Shown piece after piece: positions 16,001 through 21,438 of a stretch of 33,308 nt of DNA. The notes beneath the pieces were generated by a model. It saw nothing but the letters and a program-made list of their open reading frames with translations. It made no database searches and was not told the origin of the DNA. The stretch comes from a bacterium (GTDB lineage Bacteria; BMS3Abin14). The stretch lies in contig CP070719.1 of NCBI GenBank assembly GCA_020350725.1, forward strand, positions 1,482,096 through 1,515,403. The letters run 5' to 3'. The translations under genes and the position numbers were made by a program. Position 1 is the stretch's first letter, and each line of letters opens with the position of its first letter.

Positions 16001-17010
16001 TTGAGGGAGATCTCGAATGGCGCGGAGAATCCATACCGGTGAAGTTCCCGGAGGGCCTGTCCACAGTCAACCGCGGCCACGTGACCATGAGGTTCTCAGG
16101 GGGGAAGGGTGACGTGAGGGGAGCCATCCAGATGGACGAGGGCAGATACAACAGGGAGATCGATCTCGATAACCTGGCAGGCCTGATCGGGGAAGGGTCC
16201 CGATTCAAGGTGTCCGGGGAACCCGGCGACCGGGCAGAGAACGGAGGGGGGGACTGGCTTGCTCTGGACATCGAGATGACGACGGTCAATCCTATCGATG
16301 TGGACATTAAATTGATCAGGGGTGAGGCGAGGGGCGCACTCAGGCTTCAGGGAACCGCAGCCAGGCCCCTTCTCAGCGGCAGGCTGGAGATGGATGAGGG
16401 TATCATCCAGTACCGAGGAAAGGCTTTTGATATCACCCAGGGCACTGTGGGTTTTTTCAATCCCCAGGAAATAGAGCCCAACTTCGACTTCGCCGCCAAG
16501 GCCGAGGTGAGTGGATTAGACCGTGACGGAGTCCTCAGGGATTACGAGGTTGACCTCGTCGCTGCTGGAGTGCCGACAAAATTCCAGTTGGACCTCATGT
16601 CGTCGCCTCCGTTGAGTGAGGCAGACGTCATCTCACTGCTGACCTGGGGTGCAGTTGGTGAACAGGCATTCGCCGAGGGAGGCGGGATCTCGGCAACTGA
16701 GGCAACTCTGATCCTCACTCAGCAACTGAGGGGGAAACTGGAAACGGAAGTCCAGCAGATCACCGGTTTCGACCGATTCGTCATCGACCCGGCTTTCGTA
16801 TCGTCCAAGGGCGAAAGGGTGCCCCGTGTCCGGGTGGATAAGAGGCTCGGTGACCGTCTCTCCCTCAGTGCTTCCACCCCCATACTTTCGGGTGAGGAAT
16901 CGGAATTTCTGCTGCGCTACCGGATTTCAGACACCTTTTCCCTGCTTGGCGAACAGGGAGGAGAGAGCGAATTCGGGCTGGACCTTGATTTTAAATTTGA
17001 GATCCCCTGA
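13090..17010 (+). CDS. tamB: TamB/AsmA-family translocation and assembly protein
   Basis: 1306 residues. One N-terminal membrane anchor (about 7-22, after KRR) is followed by a long periplasmic stretch rich in beta strands with repeating L-x-G/I-x-G patterns, as in the hydrophobic groove of the AsmA-like bridge proteins. The C-terminal DUF490/TamB domain (about 900-1306) is clear: NPIDVDIKLIRGEARG, the RLEMDEGIIQYRGKAFDITQG strand pair and LLTWG near residue 1183. TamB spans from the inner membrane to the outer membrane and works with an Omp85 partner in protein assembly or lipid transport. The start is TTG 13090, needed to keep the anchor; AGGGAG at 13072-13077 is 12 nt away, so initiation looks weak. 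Its stop overlaps the Omp85 gene by one base. Confidence 0.93.
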   Translation: MKRRITAFLLIIVLAGITVAMKIITSPRLDTVIRNVLVQQAEEHLGVRLSLGSLDHNILLTRFTLEDVTLSDLRGEGREIRARRLIIAFDPYATFRGMVSVSDIQLEGIDLRVVHGTDGSVSVDPILPFWQGEGVSDRSRIRPVKVEFKRFSLIDSHLSYRDLQAGLDLDLDKVLINVGRGRFDSPDRRNITVSSRSGQLKWRAFPEGRAVPIQSIRANLVYGRNEIELSRVSLLTGPIQVELSGTVPLEKSASLSGSLEIVADLDELSWLLRGGKGKIRLSGEIVGQLSSPEFRGRLTSDEVHLADRTFDDLNAVMEMDSGGGRLTDLLFRYREEEIEAAMDIRFHRDLPFSMEVKADDYPIFRLIQEFQKDAVKPLGELDISCRIEGRLSPAFHQPGANVRLTGQGEIPLSQKGAARAFTMDVRGTYQDQEMLLEDFQAQLGSARLTAAGTMSREGFSVEFRVQEDDLAPWSDVLLLDDMRGNLVAGGEITGSWLSPVARMDIVAKGLSGGDFTVDLVEAHADVDRSGISFPLASVKIQSSAVTFQGEFPWSRGEEAWFSVGVSSGRIEDLIGAIGVPLHFSGEVTALMNFSMRHGSLVGAGETTMRDLSLFGEVFQECRFKLEVLDDGMVLNRVELVKAERLISGRAELRDGRFKARLKSEDPVLLDEVWALKKLKVPLTGDMVIEVEAEGTLDGEELSADARLQWQNISFEGRPWHSGKGTFVLKNRTLEGAADLIDSKLSARAVAELGGEFPFSGTIRSVGQIEHSDLNDFLGLGISSDFASGRGTASARARGILADLDRTEVEGVLDDFIFRIRGLNFSSRQQAPFTYTPEDGIIFEDLKLKSGESEIEGSLVIAPGGSLGGTVSGGIDLGGFSFLEPTVDTFSGRTDIEVKVSGSLAQPYLSGFVTLMSSSCVAHLPFPMEITGLAGRIEVVKDRLHFESITGRVGAGSLIMTGDIFFRGLQPVEGDLEWRGESIPVKFPEGLSTVNRGHVTMRFSGGKGDVRGAIQMDEGRYNREIDLDNLAGLIGEGSRFKVSGEPGDRAENGGGDWLALDIEMTTVNPIDVDIKLIRGEARGALRLQGTAARPLLSGRLEMDEGIIQYRGKAFDITQGTVGFFNPQEIEPNFDFAAKAEVSGLDRDGVLRDYEVDLVAAGVPTKFQLDLMSSPPLSEADVISLLTWGAVGEQAFAEGGGISATEATLILTQQLRGKLETEVQQITGFDRFVIDPAFVSSKGERVPRVRVDKRLGDRLSLSASTPILSGEESEFLLRYRISDTFSLLGEQGGESEFGLDLDFKFEIP

Positions 17011-19745
17011 TGCTCGGGACCCTTCGATCAGCCACCATTCTCTTTTTCTGTTCGGCCTCCATCTGCCTGGCTTCCGGGGCCGCTGATTCCGTCAACACCT
17101 TCGTTGGTCTCACCGTTTCAGAGATCTCGCAGGAGGGATCCGACATGGCCGATGGGGAGTTCCGTGCCCTGGTCCCCTTCGAGGTGGGTGATGTCCTCGA
17201 AATGAGCCGGGTCAGAAACGGCATCTTGAATCTCTTTCGAACGGGTCTCTATCGCAGAGTGGAGGTAAGGGGTCGGCCCCATGATGGAGGCGTTGCGGTG
17301 TTGTTCCGACTCACTCCCAAGAGGTGGCTCAATGAAGTGATCTTCCAGGGCAATCTCCGGCTTTCGGACGGAGATCTCTCGAGGAAGGTGGATCTCGGCA
17401 GGGAGGATGAACTGACGCCGGCGGATCTCGAGCGCAACAGGGAGAGGCTGGTCGATTACTACAGGTACAGAGGTTTTATGGAGCCCCAGATCTCCTATCT
17501 GACAGAAGTTGCGCCGAAGAACCGAACGGACGTCATTTACAGCATAGCGGAGGGTCTGCGCTGGCAGATCTCGGAGGTCAGCATGTCGGGGGATTCGGGC
17601 ATGTCCAGGGGGAAGCTGATGGCGACCATCGCCTCAATGCCCGGAACCCAGCTGGACGGAGAGGATCTGGACAGGGACCTGACCAGGATCACGGAACATC
17701 TCAAGGAGAAGGGATATTACTATCCAAGAGTGTCCTACACGGTGGAGAAAGATCCCCGGTTCAGGGGCGATGCTGTCGTTGAGTTCCTGATAGAGAAGGG
17801 GACTTTGTACAGGCTGGGAGTCGAGAGCCCATCCGGCCTGGAGAGCATCGGCCGTTTCAGGAGGTGGATGCGGTCGTCATTCCTCGTTGAACCCGATCCG
17901 GACAGAGCGATGGAGAGATCCGGGACAAGGGTCAAGGAGTATTTTCTCGGGACAGGATACCCCTTTGTCTCAGTGGAGTGGGAAGACCGGTCTCCGGAGG
18001 CCGGCGAGAGGGAGTTGGTCCTCAAAATCAGCAGGGGTGACCTGGCGGTCATCGGTACCGTCACCATCGAGGGGATCCAATCCCTCACGGATCAAGAAGT
18101 GGCGAGGGCACTTCAGATGAACACCGGCGATCCCTTCGTTCACGCGTCCCTCGATAGAGGCCTGCAGCTTCTGGATGAGGCCTATATGACGAAAGGGTAT
18201 CAGTCGGCCAAGATCATCCAAAAACCCCTGAATTTCGTTCCGGTCGATGGGCGGCAGGAGGTCATGATCCATATCGTCGTGGAGGAGGGGATCCGGACCA
18301 TCGTCAACGGGGTCAGAGTCCAGAGCGATGTCTACGGAAGGGACGAGATCATAGATATTCTGAACATCCATCCGGGAGATCCACACGTCCCCTCTCGGGT
18401 CGAGGAAGGCCGCCTGTCCCTGATCGAGAGGCTCTCCGGGGACGGGTACCTCTTCGGTTCGATACCCCTCCCTGAGGTCGTCAGGATCGAGGAGGGCAAG
18501 GTGGACCTCGTCTTCGACATCCGGGCGGGACCGAAGGTGCGCCTGGGAAGCATCATCATCCTGGGCGGTGAGGAGGTCGATAATACGATCGTCAGGCGCG
18601 CCGTCAATATGGAACGAGGGCACCTTCTGAGCCTTGAGGAGATCCTGGAGGCCCAACGCAGGGTCTATGCACTGGGTGTGCACAGTTCGGTTGAGATCAG
18701 CCTCGTCGACCCGGAGATCGCCGCGGAGGTCAAGGACCTGGTCGTCAAGGTCAGGGAAAGGCCGCGTTATGCCATCGGAATCAGGCTGGGATACGGCAGT
18801 GAAGAGAAGGGCAGGGTAAGGTTTACCGTAACCGATAGGAATTTTGCCCATATGGCCCGCTCCCTGATCCTGGGCTTTCGATTCAGTGACATCGAGGAGC
18901 TCGCCTCCCTGACCTACCTCCACCCGTGGTTCCTGGGTGAGCCCATTGAATTTTCCATCTCCCTCATCGACCTGATCGAGGAGAGGGAGAGCTACACCCG
19001 TGACGAGCTCGGAGTGGTCCTGAGCGCCAAGACGGATCTGACCAGGAGAACGACATTAAGGCTTCAGTACGCTTTCGAGGGCCTCGAGCTGACAGACGTT
19101 TCGCCCGACGCACAGCTCTCACCCGAAGACGAGGGGAGAACCGATGTCGCTTCTCTGATCCCCGAACTCCTCTACGACAGCCGTGACGACTTCTTCGAAC
19201 CCTCCTCCGGGATCCTCGGTGATATCCGGCTGGAGGTGGCCATGGAGCAATTGGGTTCCAAGGCCGAGTTCCATAAACTCGAGATATCCATCCGCAAATA
19301 CTTTTCCCTCGGGGGTGGGTTTGTACTCGCCGGGCTAGCGAGGGGAGGGATCGCAGAAAGCTTCGGGATAAGCGATGAAGTCATCATCAGTGAAAGGTTC
19401 TTTCTCGGCGGACAGAACTCGGTAAGGGGATACGACCTCGACAGCCTGGGTCCGCTGGATGCGGACGGCGATCCAATCGGGGGGATCAAAATGGTGAACC
19501 TCAACCTCGAACTGAGATACCCCATATACAGGTCGATCAAAGGAGTCCTCTTCGCGGACTCGGGAGCACTGTGGCTGGATCAAGCCCCCTATGATGACAG
19601 GACCCTGCGTCTTGCAGCCGGCACCGGGTTGCGGTGGTCATCACCTATAGGTCCCCTGAGTCTGGACTACGGCAGAAAATTGAATCCGGCCACAGATGAA
19701 GAGGATCAATGGCGGGTTCATTTTTCCATCGGACACGCGTTCTGA
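17010..19745 (+). CDS. Omp85-family outer-membrane protein (TamA/BamA-like), long POTRA arm
   Basis: 911 residues with an N-terminal signal peptide of about 24 residues. Periplasmic POTRA-like repeats begin near residues 30, 107, 184, 266, 345, 429 and 510, judged from the recurring strand-helix-helix-strand pattern with G-x-x-x-x-x-x-Y at helix ends; the count of seven is my estimate. The 16-stranded barrel starts near 583 (YAIGIRLGYG), and the lid loop motif VRGY is at 805-808 after FFLGGQNS. Such proteins insert beta-barrels into the outer membrane. TamA usually has three POTRAs and BamA five. TGATG joins it to tamB, so the two are probably coupled partners. BamA remains possible, since no second Omp85 gene is in view. 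Confidence 0.93.
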   Translation: MLGTLRSATILFFCSASICLASGAADSVNTFVGLTVSEISQEGSDMADGEFRALVPFEVGDVLEMSRVRNGILNLFRTGLYRRVEVRGRPHDGGVAVLFRLTPKRWLNEVIFQGNLRLSDGDLSRKVDLGREDELTPADLERNRERLVDYYRYRGFMEPQISYLTEVAPKNRTDVIYSIAEGLRWQISEVSMSGDSGMSRGKLMATIASMPGTQLDGEDLDRDLTRITEHLKEKGYYYPRVSYTVEKDPRFRGDAVVEFLIEKGTLYRLGVESPSGLESIGRFRRWMRSSFLVEPDPDRAMERSGTRVKEYFLGTGYPFVSVEWEDRSPEAGERELVLKISRGDLAVIGTVTIEGIQSLTDQEVARALQMNTGDPFVHASLDRGLQLLDEAYMTKGYQSAKIIQKPLNFVPVDGRQEVMIHIVVEEGIRTIVNGVRVQSDVYGRDEIIDILNIHPGDPHVPSRVEEGRLSLIERLSGDGYLFGSIPLPEVVRIEEGKVDLVFDIRAGPKVRLGSIIILGGEEVDNTIVRRAVNMERGHLLSLEEILEAQRRVYALGVHSSVEISLVDPEIAAEVKDLVVKVRERPRYAIGIRLGYGSEEKGRVRFTVTDRNFAHMARSLILGFRFSDIEELASLTYLHPWFLGEPIEFSISLIDLIEERESYTRDELGVVLSAKTDLTRRTTLRLQYAFEGLELTDVSPDAQLSPEDEGRTDVASLIPELLYDSRDDFFEPSSGILGDIRLEVAMEQLGSKAEFHKLEISIRKYFSLGGGFVLAGLARGGIAESFGISDEVIISERFFLGGQNSVRGYDLDSLGPLDADGDPIGGIKMVNLNLELRYPIYRSIKGVLFADSGALWLDQAPYDDRTLRLAAGTGLRWSSPIGPLSLDYGRKLNPATDEEDQWRVHFSIGHAF

Positions 19746-19817: not shown

Positions 19818-19842
19818 AAAAAAAAAGCGCCCTCCGGCGCTT
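19818..19842 (-). terminator. Intrinsic terminator of the minus-strand response regulator
   Basis: AAGCGCC (19825-19831) and GGCGCTT (19836-19842) make a perfect 7-bp stem with a 4-nt loop. Read on the minus strand it is followed by nine T residues (A run at 19818-19826). It lies about 20 nt beyond the regulator's stop. On the plus strand the hairpin is preceded by As and not followed by a T run, so it serves mainly the minus-strand gene. Confidence 0.88.
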
Positions 19843-19863
19843 CAGATAAATAGTCCTCAGAAC

Positions 19864-20475
19864 TCACTTCTGTTTTTCCTGATCGAGCACCATCCTGATC
19901 CTCTCGAAGGCTACCGAGGGGTCGAGACTCTTGTCCAGAAAACCGGAGGCTCCCATCTCCCGCACGATCTGGATGTCCTCATGACTGTCGTGGACACCCG
20001 TCATGACGATGATGGGAGGAACCGGCAGATCGGCCTCCTTCAGCTGCTCCAGAACGCCGAACCCTGAAAGCCGGGGCATCTGCAGGTCGAGAAGAATAAG
20101 CAGGAAAGCATCGGGGGCAGCCTTGAATATGTCGAGGGCCTCCTGTCCGTCCGCGGCCGCCTTGACCCTGTAACCGTTGCTTACGAGCAGATCGGACATC
20201 ATGGTCCTGAAGAATTCCGTGTCATCGGCAAGGAGGATGTACTGTTCATCCGCGGCGGGTCCGGGCAGGGGAGTCTCGGGTACTTTCGCTGCCCTGGCCG
20301 CTTCCTGGGTATGGATCGTTTCCCCTGTCTGGGACCCGTGGGATCGCCAGCCGGCCGGAAGGAGGACCGTGTATTTGGTCCCGCAGGTTCCGCAGGAGAT
20401 TCGGAAGCCCTGATCGGGAATCTTGGCCGGATCGAAGATGTATTCCTTTGAACAGAGGACACAGGATAATCTCAT
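19864..20475 (-). CDS. Response regulator with N-terminal zinc-ribbon domain
   Basis: 203 residues. Residues 1-40 form a zinc ribbon of the MJ0042 type: C5-x-x-C8 and C28-x-x-C31 with aromatic and glycine spacing typical of the family. After a linker of about 35 residues comes a receiver domain (78-203) with D84/D85, phospho-acceptor D130 in LLDLQMP, T149 and K172. K172 is followed by serine rather than the usual proline. There is no DNA-binding output; the zinc ribbon may mediate protein contacts. The gene stands alone on the minus strand, with a consensus promoter at 20487-20515 and a terminator at 19818-19842, so it is a monocistronic unit. No kinase is adjacent. No Shine-Dalgarno site precedes the ATG. 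Confidence 0.92.
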   Translation of the reverse strand: MRLSCVLCSKEYIFDPAKIPDQGFRISCGTCGTKYTVLLPAGWRSHGSQTGETIHTQEAARAAKVPETPLPGPAADEQYILLADDTEFFRTMMSDLLVSNGYRVKAAADGQEALDIFKAAPDAFLLILLDLQMPRLSGFGVLEQLKEADLPVPPIIVMTGVHDSHEDIQIVREMGASGFLDKSLDPSVAFERIRMVLDQEKQK

Positions 20476-20486
20476 GACGGTGGAAA

Positions 20487-20515
20487 ATTTAACAGTTACT
20501 CCCCCAGCGTGTCAA
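20487..20515 (-). promoter_or_regulatory. Sigma70-type promoter giving a nearly leaderless mRNA
   Basis: On the minus strand TTGACA (complement of 20510-20515) and TTAAAT (complement of 20487-20492) are 17 nt apart. Only 11 nt separate the -10 element from the ATG at 20475, so transcription should start about 4-5 nt before the start codon. Confidence 0.75.
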
Positions 20516-20677: not shown

Positions 20678-20707
20678 TTGACAGCCCCGTCGGGCATGAA
20701 ATAGACT
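20678..20707 (+). promoter_or_regulatory. Sigma70-type promoter for the SurA-like/queD operon
   Basis: TTGACA (20678-20683) and TAGACT (20702-20707) are separated by 18 nt. The -35 is perfect; the -10 matches four of six bases. The expected start, near 20714, is just before AAGGGA at 20720-20725, which serves GTG 20734. Confidence 0.65.
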
Positions 20708-20733: not shown

Positions 20734-21438
20734 GTGAACCCGATAACCCTGCAGTCCAGATGGGAGACCAGGTCCGACATGACAAAATTAGGGAGACTTT
20801 GTATCGCCGCAGGCGCCCTCCTGCTGCTGCTCCGATCCTCCGTACCCTCCCTCGCTCAGGACGAGAGGGACAACGGGGCCATTATCGATCAGGTGGTCGC
20901 GACCCTCGACGACAGCCCGATCCTTCTCAGCGATGTCCTGATGGAAAAGGAGCTGGGTCTGCTGGAGACAGGCCGACCGGCTGCAGGCCTCGAGGCACTG
21001 CTCGAACCCTTTCTCAACCGCCTGATGATCCATAAAGAGATCGAGGAGGTGGGCAGTTTCAGGCTGTCCCAGGGTCAGTTCGAGGGGGCCCTCACCGGAT
21101 TTCTGGCCAGCTTCGGCAGAAGGGAGGACTTCGAACGGAGGCTTGATTTCTGGGGCATAGACGAGCAGGAGTTCAGAAGGCGCCTGAACCGGGCTCTGAC
21201 GGTGTCCCTGTACACTGAGAGCCGCATCCAGTTCTTCGCGAGAGTTCTGCCCTCCGATATCGAGCGAACCTACAACGAGGAGCCCGAAAGGTGGGGTGGA
21301 CGCCTCCTCCACGAAGTTTGGGACGACATCAGGGAGATTCTGCTCGAGGAAGCGTTCACCAAGGAAAGAGAGAGGTGGCTTGCCACCCTCCGCAACCGTT
21401 ATCATCTGGAGATCCTCGTTGCCATGGATGAGGGCTAG
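20734..21438 (+). CDS. SurA-like periplasmic protein lacking a PPIase domain
   Basis: 234 residues from GTG 20734 or 219 from ATG 20779. The second start gives a textbook signal peptide, MTKLGR plus a leucine-rich core ending SLA-Q; the first has the better ribosome-binding site (AAGGGA, 8 nt away). The mature part begins D-Q-V-V-A-T-L-D-D-S-P-I-L-L-S-D-V, like the SurA/PrsA N-terminal chaperone domain, with the expected helices LLEPFLNRLMIHKEI and Q-F-E-G-A-L. After DIERTYNEEPERW it passes directly into a helix and the terminal W-L-A-T-L-R-N-R-Y-H-L-E-I-L segment that in SurA relatives follows the isomerase domain. A chaperone role for outer-membrane proteins is inferred. queD follows after 2 nt. 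Confidence 0.75.
   Translation: MNPITLQSRWETRSDMTKLGRLCIAAGALLLLLRSSVPSLAQDERDNGAIIDQVVATLDDSPILLSDVLMEKELGLLETGRPAAGLEALLEPFLNRLMIHKEIEEVGSFRLSQGQFEGALTGFLASFGRREDFERRLDFWGIDEQEFRRRLNRALTVSLYTESRIQFFARVLPSDIERTYNEEPERWGGRLLHEVWDDIREILLEEAFTKERERWLATLRNRYHLEILVAMDEG

Follow-up and report, generated by a model that had tools for sequence, protein, structure and literature searches.

A bacterial response-regulator gene beside bamA with a conserved promoter and a predicted near-leaderless mRNA

The window analysed here is a stretch of 33,308 nucleotides, positions 1,482,096-1,515,403 of a closed genome of 2.78 Mb (G+C content of about 60%, from a 400-kb sample), for which a plasmid search returned none. 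Its minus strand carries, at 19864..20475, a coding sequence of 203 aa, whose product combines an N-terminal zinc ribbon with a C-terminal REC receiver domain, as judged from Pfam and from orthologs. The zinc ribbon (PF13717; aa 1-35, 20371..20475, minus strand) contains two CxxC knuckles, scores 31.1 bits against a cut-off of 30.3, and its four cysteines, C5, C8, C28 and C31, are invariant among the orthologs. The receiver domain (PF00072; aa 80-193, 19897..20238, minus strand) was recognized with E = 4e-22, above the gathering score, and possesses the acidic pair (D84/D85), the phospho-acceptor Asp (D130), T159 and K182, all of them invariant. This match and the invariant phosphorylation residues bear out the identification of the gene as a response regulator, which had been proposed in an earlier reading of the sequence without database searches (the sequence-only reading).

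Neither Pfam nor NCBIfam indicates a C-terminal DNA-binding output domain of the OmpR, NarL or NtrC type, the protein stopping directly after the receiver, and no named NCBIfam family reached its cut-off among the matches listed. The protein resembles CheY-like PF00072 proteins devoid of a classical output domain, with the same receiver and all of the phosphorylation residues, and its closest solved relatives are CheY-type and similar receivers. However, it differs from these in bearing a fused N-terminal zinc ribbon, and at the level of titles and abstracts we found no paper evidently devoted to such an architecture. As regards function, phosphorylation of D130 presumably governs binding by the zinc ribbon or by the receiver.

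The gene is located between two conserved neighbours. Convergent to it lies bamA (17010-19745; Omp85 and POTRA domains in Pfam), which is preceded by tamB. A gene at 20779-21438 is divergent from it and is followed by a homologue of 6-pyruvoyl tetrahydropterin synthase. This divergent gene has no Pfam or NCBIfam match and was named SurA-like because of its gene context; it keeps its place beside the bamA region across the phylum, and its product is a candidate chaperone of the periplasm, diverged beyond the reach of the available models. It possesses a promoter-like site of its own, TTGACA-18-TAGACT (20678..20707, plus strand), separate from that of the response-regulator gene.

Right after the stop codon of the response-regulator gene sits an intrinsic terminator (19818..19843, minus strand), composed of an 8-bp stem, a loop and a T run. 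The sequence-only reading had placed a terminator at 19818-19842; it is indeed present, on the minus strand after the stop codon, but its stem occupies 19843-19824 and its T run extends to 19818. Since a shuffled region of equal size would be expected to yield 1.1 terminator-like sites in our scan, the assignment relies on the position after the stop codon and on the similar GC-rich inverted repeats found downstream of several orthologs. Wherever the orthologous contigs extend far enough, they show this gene order (in the G008 contig, L147, the stretch is partly masked and bamA was not seen there). In one genome (G006, genus g7) the response regulator is missing and bamA is directly followed by the SurA-like gene, therefore the response-regulator gene behaves as a separable unit. 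With a convergent bamA, a divergent SurA-like gene and its own terminator, it is predicted to be monocistronic, and the proposal of a self-contained single-gene unit agrees with both this arrangement and the absence of the gene from g7.

Orthologs were identified in nine of the 12 genomes sampled for the phylum, all of which belong to a single family. No full-length ortholog was detected outside the phylum, either in 50 other genomes or in a scan of named species; the named relatives are metagenome-assembled genomes labelled Proteobacteria, Pseudomonadota or bacterium. The orthologs are 63-72% identical to the 203-aa protein, align from Met1, which is invariant, and all nine start with ATG. 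As they are related to one another, they do not constitute independent observations.

Upstream of the start codon, the minus strand reads TTGACA-CGCTGGGGGAGTAACTGT-TAAATT-TTCCACCGTC-ATG. The -35 element TTGACA (20510..20515) is identical in all nine orthologs, the 18-bp spacer ends in the TG of an extended -10 (TGT, 20492..20494) whose G at -14 is invariant in 9/9, and the -10 element TAAATT (20486..20491) conforms to TAnnTT at 18 bp from the -35 in every case. This is a sigma-70-type promoter, with a spacing within the 16-18 bp range and 10 of the 12 consensus positions matched, and the 1.3-kb region contains 3 promoter-like sites versus 0.2 expected in shuffles. The claim of a TTGACA -35 and a TA-rich -10 close to the ATG was therefore correct, also when set against shuffled sequence. 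Its register was not: the -10 had been read as TTAAAT at 17 bp, which is ruled out since TAnnTT at 18 bp, together with the invariant G at -14, applies to every one of the nine orthologs; in this register 10 nt, instead of 11 nt, remain between the -10 and the ATG. Pairwise conservation follows the same elements, i.e. identity is 1.00 in the -35, 0.78 in the -10 (four of six bases invariant, as is the spacing), 0.41 in the spacer and 0.29 in the unconserved 30 bp above the -35.

In the DNA sampled from the source genome, 13 sites combine an exact TTGACA with a TAnnnT at a spacing of 17-18 bp, versus 1-3 sites for each clearly wrong spacing tested. In 8 of these 13 sites, admittedly a small sample, the -10 is TAnnTT, with T favoured over A at position 5. 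Since the correct spacings exceed the wrong ones and T is frequent at the fifth -10 position, TAAATT looks native; the bias is possibly a preference of the main sigma factor of this phylum.

The ATG start codon (20473..20475, minus strand) is not preceded by a Shine-Dalgarno sequence, as the sequence-only reading had noted. The best anti-Shine-Dalgarno duplex within the 20 nt before it has an energy of +1.2 kcal/mol, whereas 320 sampled genes have a median of -8.3 (the best of the candidate starts of each gene) and random positions one of -3.6. A standard anti-Shine-Dalgarno was assumed for all pairing energies, because the 16S 3' end was not found in the stretch searched, which contains 100 masked bases. 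One might suppose that the true start codon lies downstream, so that the mRNA has an ordinary leader, but we regard this as hardly credible. Nothing was found in its favour, Met1 is invariant in the nine orthologs and cysteines 5, 8, 28 and 31 are all conserved; as these begin at residue 5, a downstream start would destroy the zinc ribbon.

The gap of 10 nt between the -10 and the ATG leaves room for a leader of the leaderless class (0 to about 10 nt). Transcription most likely starts at G20478 (range from 20481 to the ATG), which would give the leader GUC (20476..20478, minus strand), i.e. about 3 nt with a range of 0-6. This placement follows from the orthologs with a short gap, in six of which, out of seven, the eighth nucleotide after the -10 is a purine, the seventh being so in the remaining one. 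A nearly absent leader, as suggested previously, is thus supported, with a probable length of 3 nt rather than 4-5 nt.

The gap is 10 nt in the source gene, 7 in G002, 6 in G008, 7 in G004 and 10 in each of G010, G007 and G005, so that a distance of 6-10 nt is found in 7/9 orthologs from five genera (g1, g3, g5, g6 and g8). The conservation that the sequence-only reading had asked for in related genomes is therefore largely present, with genus g4 as the exception (see below). Counting from the end of the -10, the eighth base in six of the seven is the G of a GTC or GTT preceding the ATG or else the first base of the ATG, an A, which in G008 comes seventh; starts at these positions would produce leaders of 3 or 0 nt, with 3 nt predicted in four genomes. 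None of the seven has a usable Shine-Dalgarno site downstream of the -10. Their pairing energies range from +1.2 to -4.9 kcal/mol (+0.6 in G007 and +1.2 in G005); the weak pairing in G002, G008 and G004 uses bases within or above the -10, which would not be transcribed, and a weak possible pairing of CAGGU in G010 (-3.2 kcal/mol) is too near the ATG for a normal Shine-Dalgarno. The gaps cluster at 6-7 and 10 nt, and in each of the four orthologs with 10 nt the ATG is immediately preceded by GTC or GTT, as though one triplet had been added.

In genus g4 the homologous promoter is further from the ATG, at 76 nt upstream of it in G003 and 132 nt in G009, and these two orthologs are the only ones whose predicted transcript contains a Shine-Dalgarno site (-7.2 and -5.7 kcal/mol). 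Related genomes with a clear ribosome-binding site and a different start codon had been named as counter-evidence; g4 provides the former, but its start codon is unchanged relative to the other orthologs. The alignment of g4 with g6 reveals a shared promoter block, TTGACAT...CAT...CTTCCTG.TA..TTC, which implies that extra sequence parts the promoter from the ATG in g4. The simplest reading, although not proved, would be a single gain of the leader in g4; the protein trees have weak resolution and no root. In G009 (L148, upstream of 10447) a second TTGACA promoter is situated at 80 nt, between the conserved promoter and the ATG, and the leader contains an imperfect inverted repeat, CCTGCCTGTGCATCGCATGCAGACAGG.

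Leaders without a Shine-Dalgarno sequence are known in bacteria, and the transcript might accordingly start further upstream and carry a long leader of this kind, translated e.g. with the help of ribosomal protein S1. We consider this quite improbable, as there is no other conserved upstream element (0.29 identity over 30 bp), the conserved promoter would become pointless and both orthologs that have a leader also have a Shine-Dalgarno site.

Based on these observations, we are rather confident that a sigma-70-like extended -10 promoter gives rise to a near-leaderless single-gene response-regulator mRNA devoid of a Shine-Dalgarno sequence, its transcription start and translation route being what we infer from the sequence. 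From a housekeeping-type promoter, transcripts would be initiated about 7-8 nt past TAAATT, with G20478 as the likeliest first base, and the mRNA would begin GUC-AUG, with a leader of about 3 nt and at most about 6. Lacking a Shine-Dalgarno sequence, it would undergo leaderless translation by 70S ribosomes and initiator tRNA at the AUG near its 5' end, a mode of initiation reviewed in PMC9031893. The transcript would end at the terminator just past the stop codon, forming a one-gene unit between bamA and the SurA-like gene.

Leaderless genes are already known as a kind, and the present gene adds an example rather than a new mechanism. In the bacterial TA-led genes described by Zheng et al. 2011 (PMC3160421), a TANNNT -10 near the start replaces the Shine-Dalgarno signal, and the response-regulator gene likewise has its -10 near the start in place of that signal. 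It differs from them in that its -10, measured from the first T, stands 16 bp from the ATG (12-13 in three relatives), while the distances of TA-led genes peak near 12, and in adding a strong -35 and an extended -10, in a host phylum that is a small candidate lineage. In a study of Leptospira interrogans (PMC5243855), mRNAs with mapped leaders of 0-10 nt count as leaderless, a range into which the predicted leader of 0-3 nt falls, and leaderless mRNAs are also known from Mycobacterium tuberculosis (PMC3898074). In both of these species the leaders were measured, whereas here they are predicted.

Whether the arrangement has any meaning for the host is another matter, and two explanations can be considered: (i) it is real but neutral, the promoter happening to abut the ATG in a compact intergenic region, so that the short leader has no regulatory meaning, or (ii) leaderlessness itself is selected, the regulator being made when 70S/leaderless initiation is favoured (e.g. 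under stress), with g4 having switched to Shine-Dalgarno at leader insertion. We give the former about an even chance, and the latter is only a doubtful speculation. Since g4 makes the same protein with a leader and a Shine-Dalgarno site, leaderless translation is inessential to the function of the gene; orthologs are also known to switch between TA-led and SD-led initiation (PMC3160421). Moreover, leaderless-type spacing is not strongly over-represented among the 320 sampled genes, where strong promoters at 4-11 nt precede 4 genes, against 1-5 in other 8-nt bins. On the other hand, the short spacing persists in five genera despite randomised upstream sequence, which argues against neutrality. 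With fixed synteny and a single conserved promoter, the gene being predicted to be leaderless in five genera and having a leader and Shine-Dalgarno site in a sixth, the locus is a clean comparative case, and its two forms make up a natural pair in which the effect of a leader on the output of a signalling protein could be tested. It also puts on record predicted leaderless genes from a small candidate phylum; our analysis found no such data for that phylum.

Figures for sampled genes of the source genome were derived from a sample of stretches. In this genome, the pattern TTGAC-N17-21-TANNNT-N5-11-ATG occurs in 22 places versus 9 for a reversed control, which corresponds to about 3 and 1 in 10,000 ATGs, respectively. 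Across the 12 genomes, a gap of 5-10 nt yields 239 matches versus 112 reversed (excess 127) and a gap of 25-30 nt yields 185 versus 118 (excess 67). Strong leaderless-type promoters precede about 1% of sampled genes, and TAnnnT forms only a small peak, at 6-7 nt. Energies of -4.5 kcal/mol or lower were obtained for 81% of sampled genes (a figure somewhat inflated, as the best of several candidate starts was taken per gene) versus 41% of random positions. This dominance of Shine-Dalgarno and the small TAnnnT peak rule out a genome-wide leaderless mode.

Seven more open frames of at least 111 aa that start at a patterned ATG have protein-family support, although for some of them the frame extends upstream of the ATG, which makes the start less certain. 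They encode an M50 protease, a 50S ribosome-binding (MMR_HSR1) family GTPase, a DUF6502 protein, an ArsR-like regulator, an SH3-domain protein, an MltA-like protein and an epimerase. As at least seven other genes share the arrangement while Shine-Dalgarno dominates, predicted leaderless genes form a minority class in this genome. Upstream of the DUF6502 gene (L101:228-1052, minus strand; G000:C1:447449-447487), a palindrome, TTGGGAATATATTCCCAA, spans the -10 and ends just before the ATG; near-identical matches in G001 and G008 suggest that this gene is leaderless, under operator control and conserved within the phylum.
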